From positions 1 through 40,174 of IMG/VR virus record IMGVR_UViG_3300010885_037967: 40,174 nucleotides of DNA. One strand, 5' to 3'. The first letter of the stretch is position 1. Every line of letters starts with the position of its first letter. Shown here one piece after another: positions 5,110 through 28,663 of this stretch. The position numbers and the translations under genes were made by a program. The stretch is from a virus. A model generated the notes under the pieces. The model made no database searches. It was not told the DNA's origin and worked only from the letters and a program-made list of their open reading frames with translations.

Positions 5110-6375
5110 ATGAGTTGTAGTATAGATATTTGTATAAGTAATACGGGGATATACGATGATACGTATACAATAGATGGTTTATATAATAGTTTAGATTATT
5201 ATACGGGAGCCACTAATGGTTATTACATTTTTTATTCAACAACAGAAAGTAGATGGTGTTTAGCTGCAAACTTGGGAGATCCTTGTATTTTATTTGGTCC
5301 AACAAATTCCGTTAATCCATGTCCTGATTTTTATTCTGGAATTCTTGTTGACGGTTTATGCCCAACCCCAACTCCAACCCCAACCCTAGCTTGTGATATT
5401 GATTTTGATGCACTATTTGATTGTGACGTATTTGTAACTCCTACCCCAACACCAACCTCAACACCAACCTCAACTTTAACTCCGACACCAACACCAACTA
5501 ATGTTTGTGGGGGAGTATCTTTAGATGTTACCGCAAACACATATTCTCCAACACCAACTCCAACACCAACATTAACCCCCACACCTTCATCACCAATTGA
5601 TAGACCATGTAATTTTGATGGTATTGCCAAATTTAATAGTGTTGATGGGTTTATTGTATGTGCAACTAGTAAGAAATTTGAGGATTGTTTTACAGGTATA
5701 GAATACTATACAACACAAACATTATTTGATTCTTTTGGTAATTTATTAGTTGTTGGTGACGTTTATGGTGGAACAATAAACGGAATATCTTCATGTTTTA
5801 TTTTTCAAACAATTGTAGATAACATAAGTGGTGGAGACAAAGTTGTTATTACTACAGAATATGGTCCTTCTAGTGAAGGTAGTTGTTTAAATTGTTTCCC
5901 AATTAGTAATACTCCCACATTAACACCTACTATAACACCAACCCCGACAACACCTTGTTTATGTTTGTCATATAGAATTTCAAACTTTAGTGTTTTAACC
6001 ACAACAATTAGTTTTTTAGATTGTGATGGTAAAAACATTATGTTAAGACCTGGATCTATGCGTTGGAATAATTGGTTAAATCATGAGGTAATTATTTGTT
6101 CTAAAACTATACCTACAATTGGTGTTGGGTCTGCAACTATTATAAATATTGGTGATTGTTGTAATGGTATTTGTGTACAATACTTATTAAGTAATCTTTC
6201 AACATCACCCGAAACTTATGTTTATACAAATTTATTAGGTGTTATTATATCTCAAACATTAAATGTGTCTCAAAGTATTATAGTTAATTCATTTTCAACA
6301 CCATATTCTTTGAGTGGATCAATATCTGTAACAAATACAGGAATTGATTGTTTTCCAACACCAACACCAAATTAA
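5110..6375 (+). CDS. modular tail-fibre-like protein with Thr-Pro linkers
   Basis: 421 residues built as globular beta modules joined by Thr-Pro runs. Linkers lie near residues 84-95, 109-131, 146-161 and 267-282, and the protein ends in PTPTPN. Modules are cysteine-rich and bounded by Cys next to the linkers (GLCPTP, LACDID). The module at about 285-358 (CLSYRISNFS to GDCCNG) and the next one (VQYLLSNLS to GIDC) look like copies of one fold, also seen in the 686-residue protein on the other strand. No enzymatic motif is seen. The pattern fits a receptor-binding fibre with stiff, possibly glycosylated spacers. It is translated after the 73-aa gene and ends at a strong hairpin. The minus-strand Val-Gly frames opposite the linkers are artefacts of the repeat. 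Confidence 0.8.
   Translation: MSCSIDICISNTGIYDDTYTIDGLYNSLDYYTGATNGYYIFYSTTESRWCLAANLGDPCILFGPTNSVNPCPDFYSGILVDGLCPTPTPTPTLACDIDFDALFDCDVFVTPTPTPTSTPTSTLTPTPTPTNVCGGVSLDVTANTYSPTPTPTPTLTPTPSSPIDRPCNFDGIAKFNSVDGFIVCATSKKFEDCFTGIEYYTTQTLFDSFGNLLVVGDVYGGTINGISSCFIFQTIVDNISGGDKVVITTEYGPSSEGSCLNCFPISNTPTLTPTITPTPTTPCLCLSYRISNFSVLTTTISFLDCDGKNIMLRPGSMRWNNWLNHEVIICSKTIPTIGVGSATIINIGDCCNGICVQYLLSNLSTSPETYVYTNLLGVIISQTLNVSQSIIVNSFSTPYSLSGSISVTNTGIDCFPTPTPN
5356..5590 (+). repeat. degenerate CCAACA-type repeats encoding Thr-Pro linkers
   Basis: Three clusters of short tandem units (variants of CCAACACCAACT), at about 5359-5392, 5441-5500 and 5548-5585, encode the Thr-Pro linkers of the fibre gene. 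Similar DNA, in the opposite orientation, encodes linkers at about 8930-9070 and 13010-13080. Such tracts can expand, contract or recombine. Confidence 0.75.
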
Positions 6376-9661: not shown

Positions 9662-11722
9662 TTATTTTTTTATCCCCACACCTAAAGGATTAACTACTCT
9701 TACCGTATCGCAATTATTATTTATTTTTACATTATTTAAATAAATGTGGTAGTATCTGTTTGCAATAAAACAATTTGGTGTTGGTAAAACGGGAGATATT
9801 GTATCAGTATAAGAACCGTTTATAATAGTTCCTGATGTCATAGATAAATTAATCCAATTATATTGTCTTGTTGTGGAATATTTAAAAGATGCTTGACAAG
9901 GAAATGTTTGTGGAAGTGGTAAGAATGGAGTTATTGATTGATTAGTGGCGGTGACGGGTGATCCATTAACATTTAATGTTGCTATGTTGTTATAAGTGGC
10001 AGCTGCCGCTGATGGTCCAACGGTAAATGTGTTAGTATGAATTACATCAAAAGTAATCGTTACACCAATTGGTAATAAAGGAGAAACATTTACATTAAAC
10101 ACATTAGTACCAAATATAGTAGAAGCGTAAGACATAGTAACAATATAGTTTATACTTGAAGTTGGGGGAGGTAAAACAACCGTTTGAGTACTTGTAAATC
10201 CTGAAGAATCTCTGACATAAACAATATATGATCCTTGACATAAGTTATTATATATTGTTGTAGGTTGATACGTTGATCCTCCGTTGATTGAATACTCATA
10301 TGGTGGTGTTCCCCCAAAAGGAGTTAATAATATACTTCCATCACAACCACATTCGGGTCTATTAACTCTTATTGTTAAGTTGGGAGTACTAAGTTTAGTA
10401 CATAATCCTAAATTTGCGGTTATTGATAATATTTGATTAGGTAATGATGTTCCAACCGAATTCCACCCAAATAATGGTGGGGTAGAACTGTTTATATTAA
10501 TTATTTGTCCCGCCGTCCAACCCGATACTTGCCATTGATTACCATTAAGATTCCATACAATATCTAAACTATTTATAGTATCCTCCCAAGTTGGGTAATC
10601 ATCAATGTACCCATTATATTGAAATTCATAATATTCAACATAAGATTGTTGTTTATTTCCTCTTATAATTGTAAGACAGATATCTTCGTATATCGGTAAA
10701 GGATTAAAAGTTGTTGTACTTGTTGTAATTGGTATTTCAACCCCTAAAACACAAGTGGTATATGCCGTAAAATCCCCGTAATAATCAGTAACGATTGAAT
10801 CATATTTTCCAACCCCAAGATTACTTAAAGATTGTGAGATAGATCCGTTTTCCCAAATAACCTCATAAGGAGGAGTCCCCCCTGTTATACCTAAAGTAAT
10901 TAACCCGTCAAAAGAACTTGATGTTAATGGGTCAACTGTAAAACATTCAACACCGAGAGGAAAAATTGTTATAACATCACATTCGTTTTTAGGTTCAATT
11001 GGTGGATTTGGTGGTGCAAAAGTTGTTGTTGTTGTAACAATCGGGTTAGTCGTAGTTGTTATTGTACAAGGGGTACATTTACCATTGTTAATAATTTGTA
11101 TATCTCCCGATAAAACTTTTACTCCTGTTGAGCTACATATAGAAATACCTGTTTGGTAAGGCATATTATATGGTGATTTTTTTCCCTCATCACAACATGG
11201 GGTAAATTCAATCTTTGTTTTAACGTTTTGTGAGGATTGATTAGTTACAAAATAATTAGTACAACAACTATTATCTACAACACAGGTATCACAATTATTG
11301 TACTCATTAACATTAAACTGAACTAAAGTAACACTTTCAGATCCAACTATACTACAGTCATATGTGGAGGAAAGACCACGTCCAACTAATTCATAACAAC
11401 CAGATTTATAATTATTAGGATTTGAAGATAGTAAGGCCTCATTAAAATAAATTATAACACCATTTAAATAATTTCCAAAAACTGATGTAGGTGGTCCGTC
11501 AAAATAAAAAGAATCATCATTACAACAACTTTGAAAACAATATCTTATTGTTCCTTTTGTAAGTGAGTTAATATATAAGAGTGGGTTTGTAACACTAATA
11601 TTACCATTAATATAATAAGAAACCCCAGGTGATAAATCAACCACTTTAATAACGTTATTGTCGTCAGTAAACGTAAAGTTATTATAAATTACCGAACCAC
11701 TATTTATTACTTGATAAACCAT
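9662..11722 (-). CDS. modular tail fibre or adhesin with poly-Thr linkers and SprB-like repeats
   Basis: 686 residues. The N-terminal module (VYQVINSGSVIYNNFTFTDD) and the module at about residues 150-217 (NYFVTNQSS to NNGKC) resemble the repeated module of the plus-strand fibre protein. Poly-Thr linkers lie at about 214-239 and 328-340. Two regions match SprB-type repeats: about 245-325 (FDGLITLGITGGTPPYEVIW) and about 454-520 (GSILLTPFGGTPPYEYSING, then GSYIVYVRDSSGF). The C-terminal part is Thr/Pro/Val-rich beta. Many Cys pairs suggest disulfides or compact loops. There is no catalytic motif or signal peptide. It lies between the glycosyltransferase-like gene and the 844-residue protein. 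A receptor-binding fibre is the best guess. A TATTTATA box lies 19 bases upstream. Confidence 0.78.
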   Translation of the reverse strand: MVYQVINSGSVIYNNFTFTDDNNVIKVVDLSPGVSYYINGNISVTNPLLYINSLTKGTIRYCFQSCCNDDSFYFDGPPTSVFGNYLNGVIIYFNEALLSSNPNNYKSGCYELVGRGLSSTYDCSIVGSESVTLVQFNVNEYNNCDTCVVDNSCCTNYFVTNQSSQNVKTKIEFTPCCDEGKKSPYNMPYQTGISICSSTGVKVLSGDIQIINNGKCTPCTITTTTNPIVTTTTTFAPPNPPIEPKNECDVITIFPLGVECFTVDPLTSSSFDGLITLGITGGTPPYEVIWENGSISQSLSNLGVGKYDSIVTDYYGDFTAYTTCVLGVEIPITTSTTTFNPLPIYEDICLTIIRGNKQQSYVEYYEFQYNGYIDDYPTWEDTINSLDIVWNLNGNQWQVSGWTAGQIININSSTPPLFGWNSVGTSLPNQILSITANLGLCTKLSTPNLTIRVNRPECGCDGSILLTPFGGTPPYEYSINGGSTYQPTTIYNNLCQGSYIVYVRDSSGFTSTQTVVLPPPTSSINYIVTMSYASTIFGTNVFNVNVSPLLPIGVTITFDVIHTNTFTVGPSAAAATYNNIATLNVNGSPVTATNQSITPFLPLPQTFPCQASFKYSTTRQYNWINLSMTSGTIINGSYTDTISPVLPTPNCFIANRYYHIYLNNVKINNNCDTVRVVNPLGVGIKK

Positions 11723-11750: not shown

Positions 11751-12731
11751 TCAATTTATTGTTTTTTGAATAAATGATTTCATTACTTCAATATATTTTA
11801 TTGTTGTACTATTAATTTCAATATAATCAAAGTGGGATGGGTTTTCTTTAAGTTTTAAAATAGGGTCAATTGTAATATATTCTCCTTTATAAAATTTATT
11901 ACTTTTTAAATTATCTGTAACTCCAGCCATATGTAAAATAGGTCTTTCTTCATATACTTTTAAATTATCTGTTGCCCAAGAAAAATTAAGATCATCAACA
12001 ACTTTAGTATCATAATTTAATAACCATAAATTCCACAATAAAGACCACATTTCTGCCGTCCAAAATTGGATTTCACCAGGACTTATTGGGTGTCTTTTGT
12101 GATAACTATGCATTTGTTTATAAAGAGGATAACAATCCAAATATATTTTTTCCCAAAGACTATATGTCATATTTTTCAATAAATATTGACCCCCACCTGA
12201 GTTTTCTTGGTTATCTTTAATTATGTCAACGTTTATTCCAACAATATTTGCCATTTCTTTTAATAATTGACCTTTTTCTGATTTTGGGTGTGCTTTTTCA
12301 TATCTGTTACAACAATCCATTATATAGTTGTATCCGATATAACCAATTGTATCCGATAAATAAGAAATATCATCATTCATTAATTTATTAAAATCGGGTA
12401 ATACTCTAAAAATAATATCCGCATCATGTAAGAAAAAAGTTTTACCATATTCAGGATATTCAAATAACCATCTTGATATTAAATATGGTTTGATACTTGG
12501 GATATAATTTTTACTTATTCTATCATCAATGTAAAAATGTACATTAAACCCGTAATCACATAGTTCTAACGCTCCCTTAGAAGGTTCTGTTTGTCCATTA
12601 GTTAATCCAAAAATAACATGAATTTGACAAGGATTGATTCCCTTTTCAATAAAGTTATGAGTATAAAGTTTTATTTGCCAATGAAAATAAGGAACATCAG
12701 GTTGAGCGGACACAAAAATAATATCTTCCAT
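11751..12731 (-). CDS. GT-A-like glycosyltransferase
   Basis: 326 residues of a soluble nucleotide-sugar-dependent enzyme. The first strand IIFVSAQPDVPYFHWQIKLY is followed by a Rossmann-like half and the metal-binding D103-A-D105 in TFFLHDADIIF. After the DxD come a GGGQYLLKN loop, an aromatic segment AEMWSLLWNLW and a late His in PILHMAG, as expected for GT-A acceptor and metal sites. The YFxWQ start and the layout recall hydroxyproline O-arabinosyl/serine galactosyltransferases of plants and algae (GT95/GT96 type), but this is a weak resemblance from memory. No membrane segment is present. It sits inside the fibre cluster between two genes with Thr-rich linkers, suggesting that fibre linkers are its target; modification of DNA or host glycans is the alternative. 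Confidence 0.7.
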   Translation of the reverse strand: MEDIIFVSAQPDVPYFHWQIKLYTHNFIEKGINPCQIHVIFGLTNGQTEPSKGALELCDYGFNVHFYIDDRISKNYIPSIKPYLISRWLFEYPEYGKTFFLHDADIIFRVLPDFNKLMNDDISYLSDTIGYIGYNYIMDCCNRYEKAHPKSEKGQLLKEMANIVGINVDIIKDNQENSGGGQYLLKNMTYSLWEKIYLDCYPLYKQMHSYHKRHPISPGEIQFWTAEMWSLLWNLWLLNYDTKVVDDLNFSWATDNLKVYEERPILHMAGVTDNLKSNKFYKGEYITIDPILKLKENPSHFDYIEINSTTIKYIEVMKSFIQKTIN

Positions 12732-12792: not shown

Positions 12793-15246
12793 TTACCCAC
12801 TACATGGATACGATGTTATACACGTTGGACAATCAATAGAAAAAAGAAATGGAGTTGCGGTACCAACTGCGGTACCATTAGTTGTTGAAACTGTAGTCCA
12901 ACAATTACTATTGTACACTAATAATTGACCCGCAATAGTCCCTAAAGGTAATATTAAAATAATATTTGAAACTAATCCACAACAATCGGAAACTATCCAT
13001 TTATTTACAAATGTTGGGGTCGGTGTTGGGGTCGGTGTTAAATTTGGGGTATTTGTTTGGGATGGTGTTGGTGTAGGGACATCACATTCAACACAAGAAA
13101 TATCATAATTTATTATTAAATTAATTACAACTTTTGCATCAGATAACGTATTAAATTTAGTTGGTACACAACTTTTATTGATGTCTTCACAATCATTTAC
13201 AATAGTTATTTTGTTTTTAACAATGTCTATATCAACTTCACCAATATCCGGATAAGATAATAACATTAATTTTATTATATTAATCCATTCAATATCTGTT
13301 GGGTAATCATAAAGTCCTATTGAGGTATAAAATAAGTTTTGTTTTATCACCCCATTTACACTTGTTTCAATAATAAATTCCGCACCATTAATTACACACC
13401 CTAAATCATTGTATGTTAAATCAAAAAATCCCTCACTATACATTTGTCCTATTCCTCTCATACCATCAATTCCAGTATTAACAAAATTAGTGTCACTTAT
13501 ATTGTAAACTTGATAATCACCTAAAAGTATAGTTCCCGATAAAACAATTGATTTAGTATGTGTACATCCAGAACTATCAACAACTTGTAATGTATATGTT
13601 CCCGCACTTAAATTAGTTACTGTTGATCCAGTTTGTGAGTTTACATTTGAACTCCAATTATAAGTAAAAGGTGGAGAACCACTACTTAAAAAAGAACTTA
13701 TTTCACCATCATTTCCATTAACAGGTTGTATTGCAAATAAATTAAAAAATACGGAATTTGATGGTCCAACATATGCTGTTGTTGTTTGTGAACAACCATT
13801 TGCATCGGTAACGGTAACATTATAAAACCCAAAAGGTAAATTATTATAAAAATTAATTGGAGATATTGCGTATCCAGTAATTTGATAAGTATATGGTAAT
13901 GTACCCCCACTAGTTGTTAATATCTGTAAGGTACCATTATTTAATCCACATGTGGTATTAGTTGTAACCGCAGTTATTGTAAACAAATTAACATTTGTAA
14001 CTGTTGTGGTTCCAGTATAAACACATCCTGAATTATTATCAATCAAAATTGTATATGTGTCTGATTGTAAATTATTAAAAGTTGTGTTAGTACCAACAGT
14101 TGTTGTATTAACCGTATTTCCGGAAGAATTCAGTAACGTATAGGTAAATGTTCCCGTAGGGGATCCAGTATTAACAACTATTGTTATTGCCCCATTATTA
14201 CCACAATTAGAATTTGTTGTGGTAATTGATGAAATAGTAAATCCATTGGGTGTTGTTAACGAAGTTGATTGAGTATCACTACATAACCCAGCATCTTTAA
14301 CAGTAACGGTTAAAATACCTGAAGGTAAATTTTGAAATGTGTATGTGTTTGAGAATGTAACTATTGTATCCCCATTAGATCCAGAAAAAAAGAATGGTGC
14401 TGTCCCCCCAGTAACAGTGACTTCAACCACACCATCACTATTAAAACAAGTACTTCCTGTTGTTAAAAAAGAAGATATTCCAATTGGCGGAACATTATTA
14501 ACCGAAATACTATCGGAAACGGAACATCCATTTGAATCTGTTACGGTAACAGTGTAATATCCAACCGTTAATCCAGTTGCTGTAGACCCTGTTTGTCCAT
14601 CATTCCAAATATATGTATAAGGACCAACTCCTGTTTGTCCAGTAACAAATATTTTTCCCGAACCAAAAGCAACATTACAACTTGCATCGTCAACAACATA
14701 AAACCCGTAAGAAAAAGTTGTTGATGATAAAATTGGTACGCTCGAACTTACTCCATTACACCCTGCACCATCATCACCAACAATATAATAAGTTCCTCCC
14801 GATAAATTTGAAAAGGTTATTCCACTAGTTGGAGTTGACCCACTATTTATATACCCGTTTGTTGTTTCATAAAGCAATGCAGATCCAACCCCATAAAAAG
14901 GGTTAAACCCAAATGTTATTTCTCCATCATCATTACCACAAGTTGTATTTATTACATTTTCAACACTTATAGATGTTCCCGATGATATTGGTATGTTTAA
15001 GTATATTGTATCAAAAGTTGGATTTATACACGAATCTTGGATTGCCAAACTATATGTACCGGCAGACATTCCACTAAAATAATAAGTTGTTGTGGATGCA
15101 GATGTTGGTAATAAACCTGTTGAGGAAATTTCATATACAGTGTAGGGTGAAGTACCACCAGTTATCTCAATGTAAATTTCTCCAACATTAGTATTAGTAC
15201 AATCACCAGAGATATAAAGATTATATATTATTTGTCCACAACTCAT
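12793..15246 (-). CDS. tail adhesin with seven SprB-like repeats and a Thr-Pro linker
   Basis: 817 residues. The first 573 are about seven tandem beta repeats of 77-88 residues (boundaries near 88, 175, 254, 334, 420, 497, 573). Best copies read GGTxPYTY then LxxGTYTVTVTDxxGC, as in PYTYIWNDGQTG plus YYTVTVTDSNGCSVS. This is the signature of SprB repeats, known from the giant gliding adhesins of Flavobacteria. A module at about 574-722 follows (NGAEFIIET to NYDISC), which resembles the end of the upstream 1,005-residue protein. Then come a Thr-Pro linker at about 724-746 and a Cys-rich end. It overlaps the upstream gene by ATGA, so the two are translated together. It is probably a baseplate-attached fibre binding the host surface or its polysaccharide. 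Confidence 0.82.
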   Translation of the reverse strand: MSCGQIIYNLYISGDCTNTNVGEIYIEITGGTSPYTVYEISSTGLLPTSASTTTYYFSGMSAGTYSLAIQDSCINPTFDTIYLNIPISSGTSISVENVINTTCGNDDGEITFGFNPFYGVGSALLYETTNGYINSGSTPTSGITFSNLSGGTYYIVGDDGAGCNGVSSSVPILSSTTFSYGFYVVDDASCNVAFGSGKIFVTGQTGVGPYTYIWNDGQTGSTATGLTVGYYTVTVTDSNGCSVSDSISVNNVPPIGISSFLTTGSTCFNSDGVVEVTVTGGTAPFFFSGSNGDTIVTFSNTYTFQNLPSGILTVTVKDAGLCSDTQSTSLTTPNGFTISSITTTNSNCGNNGAITIVVNTGSPTGTFTYTLLNSSGNTVNTTTVGTNTTFNNLQSDTYTILIDNNSGCVYTGTTTVTNVNLFTITAVTTNTTCGLNNGTLQILTTSGGTLPYTYQITGYAISPINFYNNLPFGFYNVTVTDANGCSQTTTAYVGPSNSVFFNLFAIQPVNGNDGEISSFLSSGSPPFTYNWSSNVNSQTGSTVTNLSAGTYTLQVVDSSGCTHTKSIVLSGTILLGDYQVYNISDTNFVNTGIDGMRGIGQMYSEGFFDLTYNDLGCVINGAEFIIETSVNGVIKQNLFYTSIGLYDYPTDIEWINIIKLMLLSYPDIGEVDIDIVKNKITIVNDCEDINKSCVPTKFNTLSDAKVVINLIINYDISCVECDVPTPTPSQTNTPNLTPTPTPTPTFVNKWIVSDCCGLVSNIILILPLGTIAGQLLVYNSNCWTTVSTTNGTAVGTATPFLFSIDCPTCITSYPCSG

Positions 15247-18200
15247 GGGTTACATAGGATAGTAAAGTTTATTCCCACATTCAATTCAAAATTTTGGGTG
15301 GTATTCAATGGTAAACAGTTATTATTGTATATTGTTATAGTTTGATCATCAGTATTAATAGTATAAGATAAACCATAATCAAGTAAATTAGTTAATGAGT
15401 CATATAAACTGTCAACCCAATTATTTGCTGTTGGAGTACTTAAAGTTGGGTTTGAGAATCCAACCCCATTAAAAAATGGGTATATAATTATTGGTGAACC
15501 ATCAATTCTAATATCGATATACCAATCAGACTCTAATGTATTTAATAAACAATCATTATTAATATCCAAATTATTATCATTCCCATATGTGGTTAATGAA
15601 CTACCCAATAATGCTCCAAATGAAGTTATTGTTGGATTTGTGTCCCAAGGGTATAGACCAATAACAGTTTGTTGTATAGGACAATCATATGAAAATATTT
15701 GTGTTATTAATTTACAAGGTTTACAAGGTACTGGTATAATTTCACAACCCCTTTGTCTTCTCCACACAAATTTTTGTCTATGAAAAATTGAGTTTTCATA
15801 TTTTACTCCCGTATTCCATATTGTAGTTGCTGGTATCATTTGTTCAACTAATCTTATCCAATAATCTCCCATACCATTAACATAGTCAATCATTGTTTGA
15901 TAGTTAAAATTATCATTAGGAATATTTATTGCCATTCCAGATTCCAAATATTTCCAATAAATTGAAGATAGTGTTGGATATCCACTTGTCTTTCCATCGG
16001 TATTAAATTGTCTGTTTCTTACATTTATCATATTTTTCCAAAAAGTTTGGGCAAATTCAAAAAATGTTTTTTCTTTTGGTTTTGGTATAATTTGGGTCCA
16101 ATCAATACCCCCTCTACTTGGATATTCAACATTTGGGTATGGATTACAATATGTTGGATCTATATAACTTAACCCTTGTTCTGGAATTGGGTAATTATAT
16201 TTTCTAGACATTGTCCACACATCATACACCAATCCTTGTGATGGATTCATAAATAAATCAACATTTTTAACATTTATAACTAATCTATCGTCAGATACCT
16301 TATAATAAGCATTAAAGTTACCATCAAAGTTTTTTCTTAAAAATTTTTCATTATTTATCCAACTTTTTTTATTGTCAACCGTTTTTTTAAGATTAAATCC
16401 TAAATTCATGTATGGAAAACTACGATATCTTTCTAAATATTCTTGCCCATAATTAAATGGTAATAATTTTGTTTGATAATTAGGGTTGGATCCAGTAAAT
16501 ACACTATTTGTTAAATCAACTTTTTCGGGCATTCTGTGTTGTGGTGTTGATTCAAACCAACCTCCCCCAATTTGAAAGAAATATGTGTCGTTTGGAACTG
16601 GCATACTTGGAAAACCGTAACTATCAATAGGGTAATCATTGTTCGTTAAACTAATATCTTGAGTGATTGTGGTTGTTGTAAATCCAGTATATTGTACCCC
16701 CATAATTGAAAACAAGTCATTTGTGTCCAAAACAGGTAATTCCTGTGAGTATGTTCCACCAGATATTTGAGCGTACTGAATATCAAATTGTCTCAAATTT
16801 ATTTTTTGATCGGCAAGGTAAATATATTCGTTAAATTCTGTTAACGCTTCAGGAGCCCCAACCATTCTTAATAATATTTCAATTGATTTTCTTGTTCCTT
16901 TAGATTTAAATAAAAAAGCGGAATTTAAAATTAAATTTCTGAAATATTGATAATTTAACTCTTCAGGTGTTTGACCTATTGGTAAACCCGTAAATGAATT
17001 ACTCCCGTTACTAAAAACTGAACTTAATAATTGATCGTTTGTTATTTGAGAGATGTTTGTATTCCACCCAAGTGTTTGTGCCAAATTTTTAAGTAATTGT
17101 GATGGAATATCATTTTTAATATTGTAATTAACAGAATTCATGTTAGCAAGAGCCGTAATAAATTTTCTTGTTTCGTCAAAACTTCTACCGTATATCTGTA
17201 ATACTTTTTGTATTTTTTGGTCTGAAGTATCAAATTCTTTTATAGCATCAGCAGTTAAAAATCTTGTTATTAAGTTTGTTTTATATAAATCAATACTTTC
17301 CGATAAAGAATTTAATTTTGTTAAATAATTTGTAAATTTGGGGGTTATAATATCTAAATTCCACGATCCATTTAACGGAAATATTGCAACTTCTTGTGTA
17401 TAATAAAATTGTCCGTCATCATTTTCTTTTGGTATGTTAAAATATGAACTATATATTGGAACCATATTTCTATTCAACAAAAAGTTTTCAACTTGATCTA
17501 AATTTTCATTAAATACTTTATTAACGTATAACTGTTTTGGTCTTATTATAAAATTACTATTTGTTGTTGTATTACCAGAAAACGGATCACCATTAACATA
17601 AACTTTAAAAACAGTGTCCGTTACTTGTGCGGGAATAAAATCAGATATAGGGTATTCAATATCATTTAAAAACAGTGAATATTTTAAATACTGTGTCGTA
17701 AAATTTCTTAAATATGAAACAGATATTTCCCTTAATTCAATATTTCTAGTGGCATTAACAGTATAATCAATACTAAACGGATTTCTAATAACAGATATTG
17801 GTATTTCAAAGTATGTTTCATCTTCAACACTATTATAAATAATGTTTTGTGCGGTTAAAGATATAACAAAATTAGTTTGTACATTGTTTATGTCTAATGC
17901 TGCAGGAAAATAATTAATAATGTTTGTAACTGAAGTTGACATCCTTTTGGTTAAAGATCCAAACATAGTAAAATTAGTAACTTGACTTAAATCAAAATTG
18001 GGATATACTCTAAAATTATCGGCAATTAATTTTTTTGATTCTTCTATATTAGATATATTTAACGTATCTAAAGATATTGGTTCAGAAAACGATCCAATTG
18101 AAAATGTCCTATCTTGTTTTTCACTAATGCTTGTTGTAAACTCAAAATTTGCCTGCGTAAAACCTCCACCGTCAACTAGTTGGAACCCAACTAAGTTGTC

Positions 18201-18260
18201 TGAAAAGGTACCCTGACCACTGGCAGGTTGAGGGGGACATTTATATTTGTTTGTCGCCAT
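15243..18260 (-). CDS. large baseplate/tail protein with a gpI/gp7-like motif
   Basis: 1,005 residues. The N-terminal half has long beta and helical stretches without recognisable domains. At about residues 440-475 a helical segment reads FRNLILNSAFLFKSKGTRKS then IEILLRMVGAPE. This resembles the KGT-containing helices of tail protein I (P2 gpI), whose T4 counterpart in the wedge is gp7. A central Tyr/Trp-rich region follows, and the last about 100 residues (IDGSPIIIYPFFNGVG to NFTILCNP) form a module also found inside the next gene, to which this one is coupled by ATGA. The start shares one base with the upstream stop (TAATG), and its first 12 bases are identical to those of the gp32-like and helicase genes. 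A wedge role is inferred from motif and position. Confidence 0.72.
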   Translation of the reverse strand: MATNKYKCPPQPASGQGTFSDNLVGFQLVDGGGFTQANFEFTTSISEKQDRTFSIGSFSEPISLDTLNISNIEESKKLIADNFRVYPNFDLSQVTNFTMFGSLTKRMSTSVTNIINYFPAALDINNVQTNFVISLTAQNIIYNSVEDETYFEIPISVIRNPFSIDYTVNATRNIELREISVSYLRNFTTQYLKYSLFLNDIEYPISDFIPAQVTDTVFKVYVNGDPFSGNTTTNSNFIIRPKQLYVNKVFNENLDQVENFLLNRNMVPIYSSYFNIPKENDDGQFYYTQEVAIFPLNGSWNLDIITPKFTNYLTKLNSLSESIDLYKTNLITRFLTADAIKEFDTSDQKIQKVLQIYGRSFDETRKFITALANMNSVNYNIKNDIPSQLLKNLAQTLGWNTNISQITNDQLLSSVFSNGSNSFTGLPIGQTPEELNYQYFRNLILNSAFLFKSKGTRKSIEILLRMVGAPEALTEFNEYIYLADQKINLRQFDIQYAQISGGTYSQELPVLDTNDLFSIMGVQYTGFTTTTITQDISLTNNDYPIDSYGFPSMPVPNDTYFFQIGGGWFESTPQHRMPEKVDLTNSVFTGSNPNYQTKLLPFNYGQEYLERYRSFPYMNLGFNLKKTVDNKKSWINNEKFLRKNFDGNFNAYYKVSDDRLVINVKNVDLFMNPSQGLVYDVWTMSRKYNYPIPEQGLSYIDPTYCNPYPNVEYPSRGGIDWTQIIPKPKEKTFFEFAQTFWKNMINVRNRQFNTDGKTSGYPTLSSIYWKYLESGMAINIPNDNFNYQTMIDYVNGMGDYWIRLVEQMIPATTIWNTGVKYENSIFHRQKFVWRRQRGCEIIPVPCKPCKLITQIFSYDCPIQQTVIGLYPWDTNPTITSFGALLGSSLTTYGNDNNLDINNDCLLNTLESDWYIDIRIDGSPIIIYPFFNGVGFSNPTLSTPTANNWVDSLYDSLTNLLDYGLSYTINTDDQTITIYNNNCLPLNTTQNFELNVGINFTILCNP

Positions 18261-19168
18261 TATGAAGTTATATTTGAGAAGTTTTTACTAAAATCAATAT
18301 TAATACCCCTATCTTGTCTTACCTCATATAATAAGTTATTAAATTGATCTCTAATTTCATAAAGATTGTATTGTTTATAAATATTGTTGTTACTGTCATA
18401 TATGGTATATATACCATCATCCATAGATTTAGTTTGATTACCATATAACGCAATTGCTAGTGTTGAAATATCGTGTTCAACAATTTCAATTTCAACTGTT
18501 GTTGGATTAAAGTATGTGTTAGATATTATTATATTTTGATCCGGTTGTCCAATAAATGGGGTTGCATTTGGTTTATTTGTTGGAGATGACGATGGAGATA
18601 AAGTACAAAATATTAAATTTGTTGATGATTCAACATACCTATATCTAATAGACTTTTGACTTGTATTCGTTAAATTTTCAACAACAGGTTCACAATAGAA
18701 TGATGAGGTTATAATTCTAAAAAAATTAGGAATTTTAGTCCCATCAGAATTTAAATATTCAACCCTAAAACCAACTAAACCTTGATTAATAAATTTATTT
18801 TTAAAGTTAGAAGGAACATTATTTATATCAACAACAATACCTTTAACATTGGGTAAAGCGGACAATATTCCACAATCTAAAATTTTAGTTCTTATTTCTG
18901 CTGGTCTTATATATAACGTATATATACCAAGTTGATTGAATTGATCTGTGGGTAATTTTAAATTATATAATCCCCCAAGTATTTCAACATTATTATTACC
19001 ACCAGTAGTTCCGTTATGAAAATATGGTCTCAATATCGCACTCGCATTTAATTTTGTTAATACAAAATTGTCTGTTTCGTCTCTTGATGGTGTATAATTT
19101 AAAATTATTTCTACGTCATCAGGGCTTACATCCGAGCTTCTTATTGTTCCGTAATTACCTGTAGCCAC
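18260..19168 (-). CDS. virion structural protein of unknown fold, 302 aa, GTG start
   Basis: 302 residues starting at GTG (19168); no in-frame ATG lies near, and the encoded VATGNYGTIRSSDVSPDDVE has the form of other starts here. The protein is strand-rich and lacks catalytic or membrane motifs. Stretches such as LYNLKLPTDQFNQLGIYTLY and DDGIYTIYDSNNNIYKQYNL suggest beta-sandwich domains. A Pro/Ser/Thr-rich segment near residues 196-210 (LSPSSSPTNKPNATP) may be a flexible joint. It sits between the PKD protein and the gpI-like protein and shares one base with the latter's start, so it is part of the baseplate operon. A box TATTTATA lies about 35 bases upstream. It is probably a baseplate or fibre-connector part. 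Confidence 0.7.
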   Translation of the reverse strand: MATGNYGTIRSSDVSPDDVEIILNYTPSRDETDNFVLTKLNASAILRPYFHNGTTGGNNNVEILGGLYNLKLPTDQFNQLGIYTLYIRPAEIRTKILDCGILSALPNVKGIVVDINNVPSNFKNKFINQGLVGFRVEYLNSDGTKIPNFFRIITSSFYCEPVVENLTNTSQKSIRYRYVESSTNLIFCTLSPSSSPTNKPNATPFIGQPDQNIIISNTYFNPTTVEIEIVEHDISTLAIALYGNQTKSMDDGIYTIYDSNNNIYKQYNLYEIRDQFNNLLYEVRQDRGINIDFSKNFSNITS

Positions 19169-21214: not shown

Positions 21215-22970
21215 CTGTAGTTGGTGGTGCTATTACGTTTATGTTCTGAACTCCAACATTACTTCCTTCAGGTATTATTCTAAAAATCGTATTTACAAAG
21301 GGATAATGTTTACCATTTATAAATGGATAATCAACCCCCACTCCATCATTATCAATAAAACCATACGGATATAAATCTCTCCATCTAAAACTATTTGATA
21401 AATTGGAGTAAAATGAATAGTCAGGAATGTTAGTTACCTTTAATGGATCACCCTCTTCAACATATGATGAATATTTTCTTAAAACAATTGGGTCATGTGG
21501 TTTATAAAAATACCCAAATTGATTATTTTGTGGGGCATTAGTATTCAAACTAAAATAAGCTTGATTGTAAGTTATTTTATGGTTGTATTTAGATATTACT
21601 CTTTCAGTTTGTTCATAATCATTCCATTCACAATGATCACCATCAATTAAATCTTCAGATTTAAGATTTTCATTGTATAAAAACGGTCCCACTATTGGTG
21701 TTGTTAGACTATTATAAGTGTTAGTTAAAATTGAAGTCTCCGATAAAGGATTGGAAACATCCCACCAAGGATTTGGTAGTGAGTTATTTAAATATAAATT
21801 AAAATCCCAACCTTCTTTTAACTTTTTTGTCCACCCAAAATACCCTTTCCATATAGTTGTAAAAAATAATTCACTTACTGGTCTATTTTGATTATCCCTT
21901 AAAGGGTTAATATCTATATCAACATTAAAGGATAATGAATACGACTGACTTCCTTCTAAAATTGATGTTCTTGAAAGATTGTTTGGTGTTAACACCGCAT
22001 TTTCAAATTTACTTTTTGCGTTATATATATTTTGTTCAAACCCAGCTTTAACCATTACAGCGTCTTCAGAATTTGTTAATATTTTATGAACCCTAACATA
22101 ATATTCTGAAGTAGTTTCAATTTCATTACTTTTATTTATTACTCTTTTAAATGTTCCTGTATTTCCGTTATTAAATGTTGTACCAACATAACCAATATTA
22201 TAAATGTTAAATATAAATTCTTCACTACCAAAACCACCGTCCCCTAAACTATTAATTTGAAATATATTAGTTCCATTGTATGTTAAAGATAATTTTACAA
22301 ACTCACCAACATTTAACCCATGTTTCATAGGACATCTAAATTCAATGTTTGGTCCAAAATTATTATTACCAACATTAATTATAAATGGAATTCCATCTGA
22401 AACCATCCAAACCCAACTTGCTGTTGTTTCTGTATCAATAGCATACATTTGTTTAGTATAGTTATTTTTATATCCATAACTAACATAATGTGTCCAATTA
22501 TATGTACTAGCACTTTTATTCACAAAATTAATATGGTTATTTGGGGGTAAAGTATATCCACCAACATTATTATCCGTTCTAATAAAATCAAATTCAAAGT
22601 ATTGTGGAAGACCGTCCCAAGGAACATTTGGTACGGGAATTGCCGGTGGTTGGTTTCCTCCAGGAAATGTTAATAAAGTATTTTCAATAGAGTTAGTATA
22701 ATATAAATTGTTTTTAAATGGGTCGTAATTTGTTGATCCTGTATACTCATTTTTAAAAATAATAGAATATTTTGTTACAGGTCTAAAAATTGTACTTGAT
22801 TCTCTTTCATCAATAAAAACTTGTTGTAAACCTAAATCTACATTTCTATCAAATTCAATAATTTCTTTTTCATTTTGATTTAAATCAACATTTACCGATA
22901 ATACGGAATTTGGTGAAGATTTATATCTTAACGAACCTAAAACTATTTTTGTTGTATCATTTACTCCCAT
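21201..22970 (-). CDS. virion structural protein, 589 aa
   Basis: 589 residues, strongly aromatic and Asn-rich, without catalytic motifs, signal peptide or membrane segments. It starts MGVNDTTKIVLGSLRYKSSP; the middle has TSEYYVRVHKILTNSEDAVM and SLSFNVDIDINPLRDNQNRP, suggesting several beta domains. The C-terminal part has Tyr/Pro-rich segments (FGYFYKPHDPIVLRKYSSY) and ends in acidic TTDDCE. It shares one base with the stop of the 1,897-residue gene and overlaps the next gene by 14 bases. Its place after gp25, gp6 and the giant protein suggests a peripheral baseplate component comparable in position to T4 gp8-gp10, but no sequence likeness to those was recognised. Confidence 0.68.
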   Translation of the reverse strand: MGVNDTTKIVLGSLRYKSSPNSVLSVNVDLNQNEKEIIEFDRNVDLGLQQVFIDERESSTIFRPVTKYSIIFKNEYTGSTNYDPFKNNLYYTNSIENTLLTFPGGNQPPAIPVPNVPWDGLPQYFEFDFIRTDNNVGGYTLPPNNHINFVNKSASTYNWTHYVSYGYKNNYTKQMYAIDTETTASWVWMVSDGIPFIINVGNNNFGPNIEFRCPMKHGLNVGEFVKLSLTYNGTNIFQINSLGDGGFGSEEFIFNIYNIGYVGTTFNNGNTGTFKRVINKSNEIETTSEYYVRVHKILTNSEDAVMVKAGFEQNIYNAKSKFENAVLTPNNLSRTSILEGSQSYSLSFNVDIDINPLRDNQNRPVSELFFTTIWKGYFGWTKKLKEGWDFNLYLNNSLPNPWWDVSNPLSETSILTNTYNSLTTPIVGPFLYNENLKSEDLIDGDHCEWNDYEQTERVISKYNHKITYNQAYFSLNTNAPQNNQFGYFYKPHDPIVLRKYSSYVEEGDPLKVTNIPDYSFYSNLSNSFRWRDLYPYGFIDNDGVGVDYPFINGKHYPFVNTIFRIIPEGSNVGVQNINVIAPPTTDDCE

Positions 22971-25900
22971 TATATCTCAGTAAAATTAACATATTTTTTT
23001 ATAAATCTATTCATCGCAGTTTTTCCGTTATTTAAACCAAAATAAAAGTGACTAGGTGCTCCAACCAAATAAAGATTACCGTTTACCGCAAGGGGTTGAC
23101 CAGGTATTATTGGTGACGGAAGTCCTGTTGACGCATTAAAATTAGTTATAAACCCTTGGGGTAATAGTGGTAAAGAATTTCCAGGTATTAATGAAGGTGT
23201 TGAAAAATAAGGATCAACACTATAATCTAAATCTTGATATCCTTTCTTAAAAAATCCAACCCCCCCACTTTGATTGGGGTTTGTCCACCAATTATTAGAT
23301 TCCGACCCAAAAATTACACTAGATGGTTGTAAAATCCATTTATAATGGGGTACTTCTTGAGTTTTTGGATAACCATAAGCATCTTGTAATAAAGGTGAAA
23401 TGTTATAAATTTCAATACCAGGTGTTAATTGTCTTCTGTAATAATATTCAATTGTGGATGATCTATAAAATACACCAAAAACAGGTTTACTTGGTGAAGG
23501 AGACTGTCCATCATCACCAATAAATATGTCCAAATTACCATAATTTTCATCAATAAATGAATTAATTTTATGTTCTGAATTAATAGATAATGATTGAGCA
23601 AAATCACCATCAATTCTATCTCCGCCACGACTGCTATTAAAAAACTGAATAATCCCCTTACCCTCACTATCATTTCCACCAACACTAACAGGTATTAATG
23701 CTTGTCTAAAATTAGCGTTTAGTATTCTTGATAAAAACCCTATTTGTATAATATCACCATTTTCATTATAACTTGTTGATCTGAACTGTTCGGCCATATA
23801 CCCTTTAAAATTAGGGTCATTACAAATTTCACTTATATATGAATCTCTTGGCCCCATATCTAATATTGTGGTTGGGAACATTATATTTTTATCATTATAC
23901 CCTGGTTTAAAATTTAATGTTAACCAATTTGGTGGTTGTGGTATTTCTTTTCCAATAAATTCTTGATTGCTATCACTCCAAGGAGAACTTCTATAATAGA
24001 AATTATTACTGTTATTATTATAAACAACAATATCTTTACAATATACATAATTAGGTGTTGTTATATTAGTAAGGTTGCTTGTTGGATATATTGATCTTTT
24101 GTTAAAAGTTGGCATGTATAATGTACCATTTATCCAATTATTTTGAAAAGTTTGAGCGAAAACTCCTCTACACAGAGCAAATACTAATGTAAATCTTGTT
24201 TTCCATTCCATAAACAATCTACGATCGTCTCTAAAAGCATTTCTTATTAAATAATAATGTTTATCATGATCACTATTATCTTTATTTAATAAACAATAAC
24301 AACCTTTAGTTACTCTATTTTCAGGAATAGAACATTGGTTAGCGGGGATTACCCCCACATTAGTACCACTACCCGAATAACAATCTAAAGCAACCAATCC
24401 ATCACAAGTAAGTGTTTGAGTTAATCCAGTATTACCACTATATTGATCTAAAAATTCAGAAACATCATAAATACTAGCAAAATTACTTGTGTTTTGACCA
24501 CCAACACCGTCAGCTTTATAATAACAGAACTTATTGTTTTGGTGTAAAGCGTATCCAGTACCATTTCCAGGTGCAGGATCAATACAAGTGGATGTAGGTA
24601 ATCTATCACTTCTCATAACAATTCTATTTGAATTATTAAAATTAACACCTAACAAGGAAAGGTCCTTAAAATAAGCTGGAGAATATAACGCAAAATGATC
24701 GGTTAGATTATTAGTTGGCCAACCATAGTCTGTCTTATTCGACACTTGGTTATAAAAAGCTCCATTTAAAGAGTACGAATAATTAAAAGACGCAGCAATA
24801 AAAGGACCTCCACCTATATAGTCTGTTTGATTTCTAGGTAAAGTATAATTACTAATTGGTGATAATAAATAAGGATTTATAGCTAAAGCTTGTTTTGGTT
24901 GGAAATATGTTAATGGAGCATATGGGTTTGATGATAGCTCATCTGTTGATAAATAGTAATATGGTAATGTAGACGTGAAACCTGTATAATTACTAGGAGT
25001 TATTGTAAAAGTAAATGAAGGGAAATATAAATTGGTGAACGTATTTGTTGGTGTATTATGTGTCAATGGTGTTTGACCAACAGGTTTTATTGGTTGATTT
25101 AAATAATATTTACCTCTTATTTTTAAATTTGCTTGTGGTGTTGTATATCCTAATATTTTTGATATATCATATTCTATTGTTTGTTTTTCGGTATGTGGAT
25201 CAACACCTCTAACAAACATTAATACCTCATAATTTGCCGAATTAGATAATGAAGCAAGACAATCAAAATTATTTGCCTGTATCGAAGGTATTCCATTATC
25301 ATTATTATAGGTTTGTCCGTTAACAAAAGTTGGTGGGGTAATAGGACTGGAGTTACTAAAACTATTAAATATGTATGGAGGAAACGGTAGGAAATAAGTT
25401 AAATCACAAGGATCAGCAATAACATATTGAATTTCGTGTCTTAAATATTTTTTTGGAAATAAATTTATATTTGTAGTACTATCTAATAAATTAAAATTAG
25501 AAACAGAAATTCCTGTTATTACTTGAAAATACTCCACATCTGTTGGATATTTTAAATAATCATCTTTATTTATATCAGTTATTGTGTCACCAGTTTGAAG
25601 TATGTTGATAGTTGAAAAAAGTGGCATACTTGGGTTGGTTGGGTTAGCATATGTAATAGTGTTTGAAATTGGAACAACATTAGATGTAATATTTGGTGCC
25701 GCAGATAATGTTGTTGTTCCTGTTACCGAGTTATTACCAAATATATTTAGTGTTGCACCAGTTAAATTTATGTTTCTTGGTATTAGTTGTCCATTTTTAA
25801 AGAGAGGACTCTGAAATGTCACAAGTTCTCCTATTCCTAAAGTTTGTGCTGTTCCGGCATTTGCTAAAACAACAATAATTTGATCTGTAAATGATTGTTG

Positions 25901-28663
25901 AGGCCCTAAATTATATGGGGCAACACTCAACTGAGGGTTTACCGTAGTGGTTATTATATTTGGTCCTCCACCGGGACCAGTAGTATTAAAATATTTATCT
26001 CTAGTGTTAAACTCATTTAATTTTTGTGGGTAGGTTTCTTTTGTTGGATATCCAAACCATCTTTCATCAGGTCCACCACTTTTTTCAGCGGCAAATAAGA
26101 ATGGTTGTGGTGCGTGGTATTTATGAAAATCCAAAGTTCCTGGTGTTATTATATCAGTACCTGAAAATAATCTTCTAAAATCAATTACCGCATTTATAAC
26201 AACATCACCATCTATCTGTTGATCAACAACTCTATTTATTAATGATTTATATTGACACTGTCCCAAACCCAATCCAATACTTGTTGGACAATAAAAATAT
26301 CCCTTAGAATTTGCATCCGCGTCTTCCTCTGGATAGTTTTCAAAATTTGGGTGCATTACGTTATATGACCCCGATAAATTTATAGGAGCAATAAATGATG
26401 TTGACTGCGCATATTCTAAACCAGAATCATCTAACCCACTTTGTTGTGCCGCAATATCAGCATTAACAGAGTTGGCATCAATATCATCATCAATTTCTGC
26501 GTTTCCGCAATCACAATCACAACTTGTACATTCTGGATAAGACATCATTGGTAATCCAAGTCTTGGGAAATCCGTTATTTTTATTAAATAAATTATGGTA
26601 AACGCAACAAAAGATAAAGATAAGGCTAGTTTAAAAAGAAGTTTTGCATAATACAAAGCAATTTGTAATATGTCACCTGCACTAAATACAGGTCCTCCAG
26701 GAACAGAAACAGTGGAAGTCGATGAAATAATCCAATTTGTTAATTGAATCCCATCTGATATCGCTTCATAAGCAAAATAAAGTCCTAAAACAATTAATAA
26801 ATATTTTAAAACAGGCCAAATAAATGCAATAAAATGCATCAACCATAATATGATTATAAGTGGTATTGCTAATATATTAAGTATTATATTAAACGCAAAA
26901 AATAAAGGGTCAAAATTTTTAATTATATCATTAACTGGAAATGTGTTAGTTGTAGACTTACAACTTCTGTCGTCAATTTCTTTAATCCCTAAATGTCTTG
27001 CTCTGCCAGCTCCTCTTTTATACCTATCCAAAAACATTGAGGTGGTATAAACTTTATTATAATTAAATTCATAAAACTTATCTTCACAGTCTATCGCCTC
27101 TTGTATCATTTGTTGACCTGTGGTAGTCGTATTATCACCATAATCATTCCAGTCCACACTAAAAGCATAAGATCTTAAAGCATCAAAAGTTGGTTGTTGA
27201 TAAAACGTATAATTAAATTGGGTTAGAGTGCCGGGATTTATAGGAACAACATTTATTGTTAAAATTGTAGGAATAACGGTAATTGGAATACTTTCTAAAT
27301 CACCAAAATATAGGACACCATTTAATAAAATTGTAAAACTTTCAACGTTAATTTTATTATCTAAAGCTAATCCACCTGTTGATGTGTTATTTAGAGGATA
27401 TGTAAAAGTAACCGTACCATTTGGTATTATAATTGTATGTAATGTAGTTGGGTAATTTATCAATGGGTCAATTGATGGCGTTATCCATCCGTGTTCTTTA
27501 ATATTTGGAACAAGAAAATGTCCTCTTTGAAATGGGTTTTGTAAACCTTGTTCATTTTGCCATTTAAATTTAAATCTATATTTTCCTTTTGTTGGTAGAC
27601 CTTTATTAGGATCATTAGATAAAACTTGTTCCCCAAATTCATTGGTTATAATATAATTTAAATTCATTGGAACATTTACTAAAAATGTACCGTCTGAATC
27701 AATAACCTTACCACCTTCAACTAACGCATAAGGTTCAAGAATTGGTCGACCAAGTTGGTCAACTCCAATAGTTTGCCTAATTGTTACTATTTCTCCAGGA
27801 CCTGAAACTAATTCACATAAATTTCCTGTATTATTTCTTGGTGTACAACTAACTCTAACCGCATCATCGTTTGTAGTCGAAATTAATGACCCCATAAATA
27901 CTGCTGTTGGTTGTATATTAATATTTAGATTTGCCGTCAAATCAAAGTCAGATCTAGTTATTCCTAATAAACAAATTTCAGGTTCACCCCATAATGGTGA
28001 TACCTCAATAATTTTATTTAAACTAACAATTTGCGGTAATTCATTTAAATTTGTTGATGTTTTAAATCTAGAACCATTAACTTGTGACTCTACCGCAACA
28101 CCAATGTCTATTAAATCTTGTGGTGATAACGAAAAACATCCAATATCAGATAAATCAACGTCCATTAATATTGTTTGAGTACCTGTTGGTACTCCAAATA
28201 TCATGTAATCACCACTTTCATTTGTTCTTACTGAAAATTTATAGTATTTATCGTATACCTCAACATATGATTGATCTGTAAGAATTTCATTTTTTGTTGG
28301 GAAATTTCCCGTTGATGAGTGTCCATTATATGACGGTTCTTTTGGTAATAAGTTATATCTATATCCATCTTCATTTATGTCAGAAATTGTTTTATAAGGA
28401 TATAATTCAGAAATTATTGGATTTTCTAAATCTAAATCACTAATAGGAATAAAAACAGATACTCTAGCGTTTGGAACTCCAAATCCATTATTAACAATAA
28501 CTCTACCAACAACTACCCCATAATCGGAGCACATTCTATTATAGATTTCGCCTTGATTTATTTTTAAAGATAATATCTCTAAAAACTCAAAGTCCTGTTC
28601 TAATTGAATGTTGATAGTTTTTTCACTACCAGGAGTAGTTCGTATTCTATATGATTTTGGCAT
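22970..28663 (-). CDS. giant baseplate-region protein with an internal membrane-like segment
   Basis: 1,897 residues. Near the N-terminus a carboxypeptidase-regulatory-like beta domain is suggested by DYGVVVGRVIVNNGFGVPNA (about 46-66) and FSVRTNESGDYMIFGVPTGT (about 146-167). At about 588-700 lies a block of three to four strongly hydrophobic helices (IILNILAIPLIIILWLMHF, LLIVLGLYFAYEA, and FKLALSLSFVAFTIIYLI). A cysteine cluster CTSCDCDCG and an acidic stretch follow. The remaining 1,150 residues are Tyr/Asn/Pro-rich beta structure ending in APSHFYFGLNNGKT. It occupies the slot after gp25/gp6 where T4 has gp7. A hydrophobic block is unusual for a baseplate protein and could insert in the host membrane or be buried. 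Function unknown. The leader has a 12-base direct repeat and a TATTTATC box. Confidence 0.75.
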   Translation of the reverse strand: MPKSYRIRTTPGSEKTINIQLEQDFEFLEILSLKINQGEIYNRMCSDYGVVVGRVIVNNGFGVPNARVSVFIPISDLDLENPIISELYPYKTISDINEDGYRYNLLPKEPSYNGHSSTGNFPTKNEILTDQSYVEVYDKYYKFSVRTNESGDYMIFGVPTGTQTILMDVDLSDIGCFSLSPQDLIDIGVAVESQVNGSRFKTSTNLNELPQIVSLNKIIEVSPLWGEPEICLLGITRSDFDLTANLNINIQPTAVFMGSLISTTNDDAVRVSCTPRNNTGNLCELVSGPGEIVTIRQTIGVDQLGRPILEPYALVEGGKVIDSDGTFLVNVPMNLNYIITNEFGEQVLSNDPNKGLPTKGKYRFKFKWQNEQGLQNPFQRGHFLVPNIKEHGWITPSIDPLINYPTTLHTIIIPNGTVTFTYPLNNTSTGGLALDNKINVESFTILLNGVLYFGDLESIPITVIPTILTINVVPINPGTLTQFNYTFYQQPTFDALRSYAFSVDWNDYGDNTTTTGQQMIQEAIDCEDKFYEFNYNKVYTTSMFLDRYKRGAGRARHLGIKEIDDRSCKSTTNTFPVNDIIKNFDPLFFAFNIILNILAIPLIIILWLMHFIAFIWPVLKYLLIVLGLYFAYEAISDGIQLTNWIISSTSTVSVPGGPVFSAGDILQIALYYAKLLFKLALSLSFVAFTIIYLIKITDFPRLGLPMMSYPECTSCDCDCGNAEIDDDIDANSVNADIAAQQSGLDDSGLEYAQSTSFIAPINLSGSYNVMHPNFENYPEEDADANSKGYFYCPTSIGLGLGQCQYKSLINRVVDQQIDGDVVINAVIDFRRLFSGTDIITPGTLDFHKYHAPQPFLFAAEKSGGPDERWFGYPTKETYPQKLNEFNTRDKYFNTTGPGGGPNIITTTVNPQLSVAPYNLGPQQSFTDQIIVVLANAGTAQTLGIGELVTFQSPLFKNGQLIPRNINLTGATLNIFGNNSVTGTTTLSAAPNITSNVVPISNTITYANPTNPSMPLFSTINILQTGDTITDINKDDYLKYPTDVEYFQVITGISVSNFNLLDSTTNINLFPKKYLRHEIQYVIADPCDLTYFLPFPPYIFNSFSNSSPITPPTFVNGQTYNNDNGIPSIQANNFDCLASLSNSANYEVLMFVRGVDPHTEKQTIEYDISKILGYTTPQANLKIRGKYYLNQPIKPVGQTPLTHNTPTNTFTNLYFPSFTFTITPSNYTGFTSTLPYYYLSTDELSSNPYAPLTYFQPKQALAINPYLLSPISNYTLPRNQTDYIGGGPFIAASFNYSYSLNGAFYNQVSNKTDYGWPTNNLTDHFALYSPAYFKDLSLLGVNFNNSNRIVMRSDRLPTSTCIDPAPGNGTGYALHQNNKFCYYKADGVGGQNTSNFASIYDVSEFLDQYSGNTGLTQTLTCDGLVALDCYSGSGTNVGVIPANQCSIPENRVTKGCYCLLNKDNSDHDKHYYLIRNAFRDDRRLFMEWKTRFTLVFALCRGVFAQTFQNNWINGTLYMPTFNKRSIYPTSNLTNITTPNYVYCKDIVVYNNNSNNFYYRSSPWSDSNQEFIGKEIPQPPNWLTLNFKPGYNDKNIMFPTTILDMGPRDSYISEICNDPNFKGYMAEQFRSTSYNENGDIIQIGFLSRILNANFRQALIPVSVGGNDSEGKGIIQFFNSSRGGDRIDGDFAQSLSINSEHKINSFIDENYGNLDIFIGDDGQSPSPSKPVFGVFYRSSTIEYYYRRQLTPGIEIYNISPLLQDAYGYPKTQEVPHYKWILQPSSVIFGSESNNWWTNPNQSGGVGFFKKGYQDLDYSVDPYFSTPSLIPGNSLPLLPQGFITNFNASTGLPSPIIPGQPLAVNGNLYLVGAPSHFYFGLNNGKTAMNRFIKKYVNFTEI

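Follow-up and report, generated by a model that had tools for sequence, protein, structure and literature searches.

Why would a phage encode, within its tail genes, a protein built largely of SprB repeats, a family (PF13573) shared with the SprB gliding adhesin of Flavobacterium johnsoniae? The question is raised by SprB817, an 817 a.a. protein encoded on the minus strand (nt. 12793–15246) of a 40,174-base stretch of DNA classed as a virus record (hereafter, the window).

Gene order and domain layout of SprB817

The window has a G+C content of 29.7% and carries nearly all of its long open reading frames (ORFs) on the minus strand, with the high coordinates transcribed first. These encode a single-strand binding protein, a UvsX-like recombinase, an exonuclease, a DnaB-like helicase, and both subunits of a ribonucleotide reductase. 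Next in transcription are two genes matching "baseplate wedge subunit" families in PHROGs, one gp25-like (nt. 30582–31040; phrog_261, E 8.7e-16) and one gp6-like (nt. 28737–30575; phrog_219, E 3.7e-24), following what we take to be their T4 names, and then a run of large genes in the order g1897, g589, g273, g390, g302, g1005, SprB817, GT326, g686, and g844 (labels coined in this analysis). Within this run, g1897 (nt. 22970–28663) encodes a large protein, g302 (nt. 18260–19168) is a highly conserved module gene that served as our survey anchor, and g1005 (nt. 15243–18260) is a conserved neighbor directly upstream of SprB817, the two genes sharing a 4-base stop/start overlap. The tail context assumed in the original prediction thus agrees with this same-strand run and its two baseplate wedge matches. 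The sole plus-strand ORF of >200 a.a. (nt. 5110–6375, 421 a.a.) gave no PHROG match at E 0.1.

The host of the phage is likely a member of the Bacteroidota. The best phage matches to the reductase large subunit came from Cellulophaga, Tenacibaculum, and one uncultured phage (39.6–41.9% identity), and the small subunit is 66–67% identical in two Tenacibaculum phages. Shine-Dalgarno sites are mostly missing in Bacteroidota, and their scarcity in the window (1 of 26 starts; shuffled mean 0.6) would fit a Bacteroidota host without proving it. A scan for the Bacteroidota promoter motif, with a consensus assumed from general knowledge, returned 22 matches, above the mean (9) and maximum (18) of 100 shuffles, but was set aside given that 18 of the 22 lay on the strand opposite most genes.

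SprB817 matched the Pfam SprB profile over six stretches (E 1.3e-21; 76.4 bits against a cut-off of 28), and our own repeat alignment and HMM delineated seven units of 74–88 a.a. filling residues 1–571. The tandem repeats originally read by eye, about seven in number (there placed in residues 1–573) were therefore borne out, as was their assignment to SprB by profile search. All on the minus strand, these are R1 (residues 1–88; nt. 14983–15246), R2 (89–176; nt. 14719–14982), R3 (177–252; nt. 14491–14718), R4 (253–335; nt. 14242–14490), R5 (336–418; nt. 13993–14241), R6 (419–497; nt. 13756–13992), and R7 (498–571; nt. 13534–13755). The signature quoted for the repeats held less evenly: by eye, it is clear in R3, R4, R6, and R7, whereas R1 shows part of it and R2 and R5 a degenerate form. 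Two further copies had been claimed for a 686 a.a. protein, and g686 (nt. 9662–11722, minus strand), which also has Thr/Pro-rich stretches, indeed matched Pfam SprB (E 1.4e-9) over two stretches (nt. 10271–10345 and 10844–10912). Chance similarity was ruled out, as the same SprB family search gave no matches in 14 control genomes and the array recurs in relatives, most pairs of whose arrays share <50% identity.

Cysteines are found in both repeat halves in 57–61 of 61 family proteins for R2–R6, in 46 for R1, and in 11 for R7, and likewise in 580 of 672 host repeats. One PHROG match of SprB817 (residues 424–587, E 1.2e-7) was to phrog_26672, a "virion structural protein" filed under head and packaging. 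SprB817 had no match among phage records at E 1e-5, while at E 10 it retrieved 59 records, mostly as weak Wac/fibritin matches. Downstream of the array lie a conserved alpha/beta domain (D; residues 572–722, nt. 13081–13533), a Thr/Pro-rich linker (residues 723–747, nt. 13006–13080), and a variable, cysteine-containing tip (residues 748–817, nt. 12796–13005).

The array is predicted to be a string of SprB-family repeats, each folded as an Ig/FN3-like beta-sandwich. An AlphaFold2 model of the whole protein (52 family sequences; mean pLDDT 78.3) shows seven strand-rich domains followed by D, with 52 of 57 ten-residue blocks of the array at pLDDT 80–94 and residues 722–817 below 50; its pTM of 0.39 makes the placement of the domains relative to one another unreliable. 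The best solved structures by Foldseek were segments of the Aureispira grappling-hook protein GhpA (E 7.8e-19, 20% identity), at TM-scores of 0.16, which are low but expected for a flexible string. A second look with VIA retrieved mostly fibronectin type III strings (3t1w; Z 12.1, rmsd 14.6, 304 aligned), along with GhpA (9fly; Z 10.3, rmsd 49.9, 514 aligned) and the lambda central tail fiber (8xci; Z 9.7, rmsd 10.9, 152 aligned); these PDB matches mainly cover residues 91–496, outside D. Against PDB sequences, the family profile retrieved the neck-whisker protein of a phage (9occ) at E 2.1e-5 and, more weakly, two decoration proteins (E 5.9e-4 and 3.5e-3). The SprB/Ig-like fold anticipated from the repeats is, on these strand-rich domains and Ig/FN3-type matches, in keeping with structure prediction.

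A constant array and a changing tip in the window clade

To sample relatives by a criterion other than the repeat, viral contigs were searched with an alignment of g302, itself built partly from contigs first reached through SprB, and the best 80 of at least 592 relatives (592 of 599 matched stretches) were kept. These 80 loci (numbered with the prefix L) are the nearest to the window g302 (77–100% identity), such that the constancy described below holds for one clade, and at least three of them (L106, L107, and L132) had already been fetched by SprB or the repeat motif. The gene after g1005 is in view in 63 loci, while 15 end at or in g1005 and two show no g1005. In all 63 informative loci this gene is an SprB-repeat gene consistent with seven repeats: 54 are complete with seven repeats inside the first 620 a.a., L178 has its seven behind an N-terminal insert, L120 is split 2+5 by an in-frame stop, and of the truncated remainder five have seven repeats and two are cut after the fifth.

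The repeats also correspond by position. Across 61 non-identical proteins (from 71, motif-selected ones included), 24,075 of 25,618 best matches (94%) fell on the same repeat of the other phage, with a mild circularity in that the unit boundaries were set by aligning each protein with that of the window. Copies of the window (L001–L007) and proteins below 280 bits were dropped from this set, as were those cut by contig ends or split (L120, L061, L180, L166, L026, L108, L023, L138, and L152); two proteins with ORFs reaching the contig end (L146 and L164) stayed in the set, their tip lengths being lower bounds. Unit lengths are nearly fixed (R4, 83–84 a.a.; R7, 71–75 a.a.), with R1 varying via N-terminal inserts, and the region beyond the array spans 137–841 a.a. 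As 1,542 of 1,830 array pairs are <50% identical, this constancy is not mere closeness of the sampled phages. The dN/dS between the window and L010 (0.22 in the array; 0.16 in D) indicates that the array is under purifying selection.

The group appears to be uncultured, since g302 has at least 592 relatives in viral contigs but none in the 50,697 phage records searched, and none of 98 pattern-fitting stretches in the bacterial genome collection was confirmed; records very close to the window may have been outside these searches. No relatives of g1005 were found among the phages or plasmids searched. As a side observation, g302 is a possible marker for this uncultured phage group.

Beyond the array, the D profile also matched the C-terminus (last fifth) of 31 of 78 g1005 homologues, with the window g1005 below threshold. 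A non-linker tip of at least 50 a.a. was counted in 37 of 61 proteins, or 36 once the "tip" of L178 is recognized as misaligned domain D; 29 of the 37 have a Thr/Pro-rich linker, and the tips form 14 groups separable by BLAST. The remaining 24 proteins have no tip of this size. Of the 12 pairs with arrays ≥90% identical, 4 differ in tip state (three of these four involving L010), as do 11 of 25 pairs at 70–90%. Between the window and L010, identity is 541/571 in the array (95%) and 140/151 in D, and falls to 18/69 in the tip (26%), which could also reflect a fast-diverged homologue rather than a swap. Among eight long proteins scanned, the tips matched DUF285 (two), PBP (one), and Fib_succ_major (one), with no family found in the other four. 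By these comparisons of sequence, the C-terminal tip, and not the repeats, is the most variable part of the SprB817 family. Phage receptor-binding proteins generally have a stalk-and-tip layout, and the conserved N-terminal and variable C-terminal parts found here, outside the 24 proteins with no tip of at least 50 a.a., form the pattern of constant stalk and changing tip expected of such a protein; binding of the host would then fall to the tip.

Between the two SprB-repeat genes of the window lies GT326 (nt. 11751–12731, minus strand), which we consider a putative glycosyltransferase, GT8-like by its predicted fold. Searches of its sequence against Pfam and PDB gave no relevant match, so that only its predicted fold was informative: the model (pLDDT 91.3) resembles glycogenin (3rmw; Z 15.5, rmsd 3.5, 230 aligned) and also UGGT-type transferases, and H102, D103, and D105 are invariant in 24 sequences, as in a GT-A fold with a DxD motif. 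A GT326 homologue is in view in 22 of the 42 loci showing at least 3 kb after SprB817, between 13 and 3,102 bases downstream. GT326 may glycosylate the Thr/Ser-rich tail proteins. GT326 also matches phrog_4417 (no function assigned), and tblastn retrieved relatives from 74 phage records, of which 63 are from phages of Lactobacillus, Enterococcus, Staphylococcus, or Lactococcus.

Spacer, adhesin, or captured host protein

On balance, we lean toward SprB817 being a fixed-length arm of the virion, composed of Ig-like domains and showing a variable recognition tip, with the array mainly a spacer. SprB817 would be a structural tail or baseplate protein in a group of uncultured phages that probably infect Bacteroidota and whose baseplate genes are T4-like. 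Its seven SprB domains, fixed in number and order and nearly fixed in length, would form with D an arm of set length, presumably oriented with the N-terminus to the baseplate, which in most members would hold the Thr/Pro linker and the changeable tip at a distance from the baseplate. Host recognition is the likely role of the tip, and the array would serve mostly as spacer, perhaps having some weak affinity for glycans. Location in the virion is suggested by synteny and by weak similarity to a protein of Cellulophaga phage phi19:1 whose virion annotation comes from MS/MS, and which matched the repeat HMM (E 1.8e-10) but had no Pfam SprB match. Against the arm stand the head category of phrog_26672 and the 24 of 61 proteins without a tip of at least 50 a.a., in which recognition must lie elsewhere. 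A sister clade also appears to manage mostly without a seven-domain arm after g1005.

This sister clade was surveyed from a more distant g302, and there the repeats lie in the g1897 homologue (40 of 43 ORFs of >700 a.a.; 2–6 per protein), with the best repeat in the C-terminal half in 40 of 40; in the window clade, the 74 g1897 homologues in view all lack SprB repeats. In most sister-clade loci no repeats are seen in the slot after g1005, with one or two weak ones in L213, L230, and L234, and a further slot between g273 and g390 has repeats in small extra genes of L188, L192, L193, and L220. Related phages thus seem, judging from these gene comparisons, to place SprB-like domains in different genes. 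An adherence role has been proposed for other Ig-like domains on phages, and it is possible, if rather unlikely, that the SprB-like repeats are themselves adhesive, each beta-sandwich weakly binding a host or environmental glycan and the array providing avidity. The recurrence of the domain after g1005, in g686, in sister-clade g1897 homologues, and in the extra genes between g273 and g390 would suit this explanation: two to three copies are few for a long spacer, and reuse of one domain family suggests that its surface matters. Yet the copies are diverged (mean 30% identity within one phage protein, versus 43% within 40 motif-selected host proteins), their number is fixed at seven in the window clade, which is not an obvious outcome of selection for avidity, and it is the tip rather than the array that varies most.

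We consider it improbable that the SprB domain surface is itself under selection, with virions binding the ligand or machinery of the gliding adhesin and adsorbing via the moving adhesin layer; this idea is prompted by the presence of the same domain family in several proteins of the tail run, in different slots in the two clades.

That the repeats may have been taken from a host was also part of the original prediction. For the window repeats, the best same-clade phage match is 52–67% identical versus 29–53% for the best host match, the top host matches being R3 (53%, Flavobacterium hydrocarbonoxydans) and R6 (50%); the host repeats came from motif-chosen loci among the matches listed, a choice that favors good matches. 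The best host match outscores the best sister-clade phage match for R3–R7 (R4 barely), is tied for R1, and is outscored for R2. In a tree of 101 repeats (85 columns, four phages), host and phage repeats are interleaved; R3, R4, and R5 form well-supported clades, R1 (100/51) and R7 (54/37) weaker ones, and R2 and R6 none. R3 and R7, and likewise R2, R5, and R6, look like old duplications in this tree. The proposed phylogeny of phage and host repeats thus resolved some positions but yielded no clade of phage repeats apart from the host ones, and with 85 columns for 101 rows the former are not placeable relative to the latter.

What may still hold of the host proposal is an older origin or exchange, consistent with the host scores for R3–R7 and the interleaved tree; recent capture is not supported, as the array is inherited as a unit under purifying selection and its same-clade phage matches exceed those to hosts. 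It is accordingly very improbable that SprB817 is a recently captured gliding adhesin used to bind SprB's own ligand: the same family does occur in host Bacteroidota, with good matches to R3 and R6, but positional orthology extends to 63 of 63 informative loci, and no type IX sorting domain was found above threshold.

Two other SprB-bearing proteins were noted in the virus records. In LR756502.1, a 642-kb uncultured phage (L012:9727–14751), a 1675 a.a. frame has 13 SprB stretches, PKD, and CHU_C (E 5.2e-14), with a signal-peptide-like start by eye and phage topoisomerase II genes nearby; it is apparently a phage-encoded, host-type secreted adhesin. The second (L065:1672–4143) is an SprB, PKD-like, and CHU_C protein with a signal-like start, located within a contractile-tail cassette (sheath, tube, baseplate hub, and tape measure), and its C-terminus is the same in L058 and L076 and similar in L103. 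The L065 locus may belong to a phage or, despite its label as a virus, to an extracellular contractile injection system.

The 642-kb record suggests that a phage can encode SprB stretches with the CHU_C type IX secretion domain, but it is very improbable that SprB817 is likewise secreted to the surface of the infected cell, outside the virion, as it has no CHU_C match in Pfam, a sub-threshold Por_Secre_tail score (9.2 bits against a cut-off of 27), a start (MSCGQIIYNLYISGDC) in which no signal peptide is seen by eye, and an unbroken same-strand run in common with baseplate genes.

Precedents and significance

The closest precedent for SprB817 is the tail-associated BACON array of crAssphage, which is described as having tandem domains with position-specific clades, stable order, internal duplications, and unknown function (de Jonge 2019, PMC6949934). 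Both are bacterial beta-sandwich domains arranged in tandem and conserved by position in a tail-associated phage protein, and SprB817 shows the same position-specific grouping (94% same-position matches; R3–R5 clades). They differ in that the crAssphage array is of BACON domains (PF13004) in gut crAss-like phages, whereas the window phage has seven SprB copies, D, tips, and baseplate wedge neighbors.

Other likenesses are more partial. SprB of F. johnsoniae has the same repeat family, whereas SprB817 lacks a detected C-terminal type IX sorting domain of the kind that marks secreted gliding adhesins and has seven diverged units within a phage tail run. GhpA of Aureispira (PDB 9flp and 9fly), the top solved-structure match, is, from its entries, a very large bacterial protein (fragments to residue 5009) whose context is not shared with SprB817. 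The Wac fibritin of Pseudotevenvirus RB43 is a T4-like virion protein with C-terminal Ig/SprB-like domains (Pfam SprB E 7.4e-11), but Ig_3 matches it better (E 2.6e-20), and it is a neck whisker of an Escherichia phage; its locus (NC_007023.1; L015:1426–3714) passes the Pfam SprB cut-off. The best BFVD match (E 1.3e-57, 32% identity) was UniProt A0A6J5LD72, a 714 a.a. "SprB repeat [uncultured Caudovirales phage]" which, judged by its name and structural match, is probably a member of the SprB817 family, such that the database label pre-exists.

In the open-access literature searched, seen mostly as titles and abstracts, no description of SprB repeats in phage tails was found. One paper states that the adhesins SprB and RemA may act as phage receptors (PMC13288928), and a 2025 paper reports uncultured large aquatic phages with predicted Bacteroidota hosts, SprB being unmentioned in the passages seen (PMC12619734).

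With SprB817, SprB joins BACON among the bacterial surface domains turned into phage tail parts. The difference between a constant arm and a changing tip shows where in the protein to look when linking these phages to hosts or studying their receptors, and the reading of SprB817 as an arm with a tip suggests how these phages may reach and recognize their hosts.
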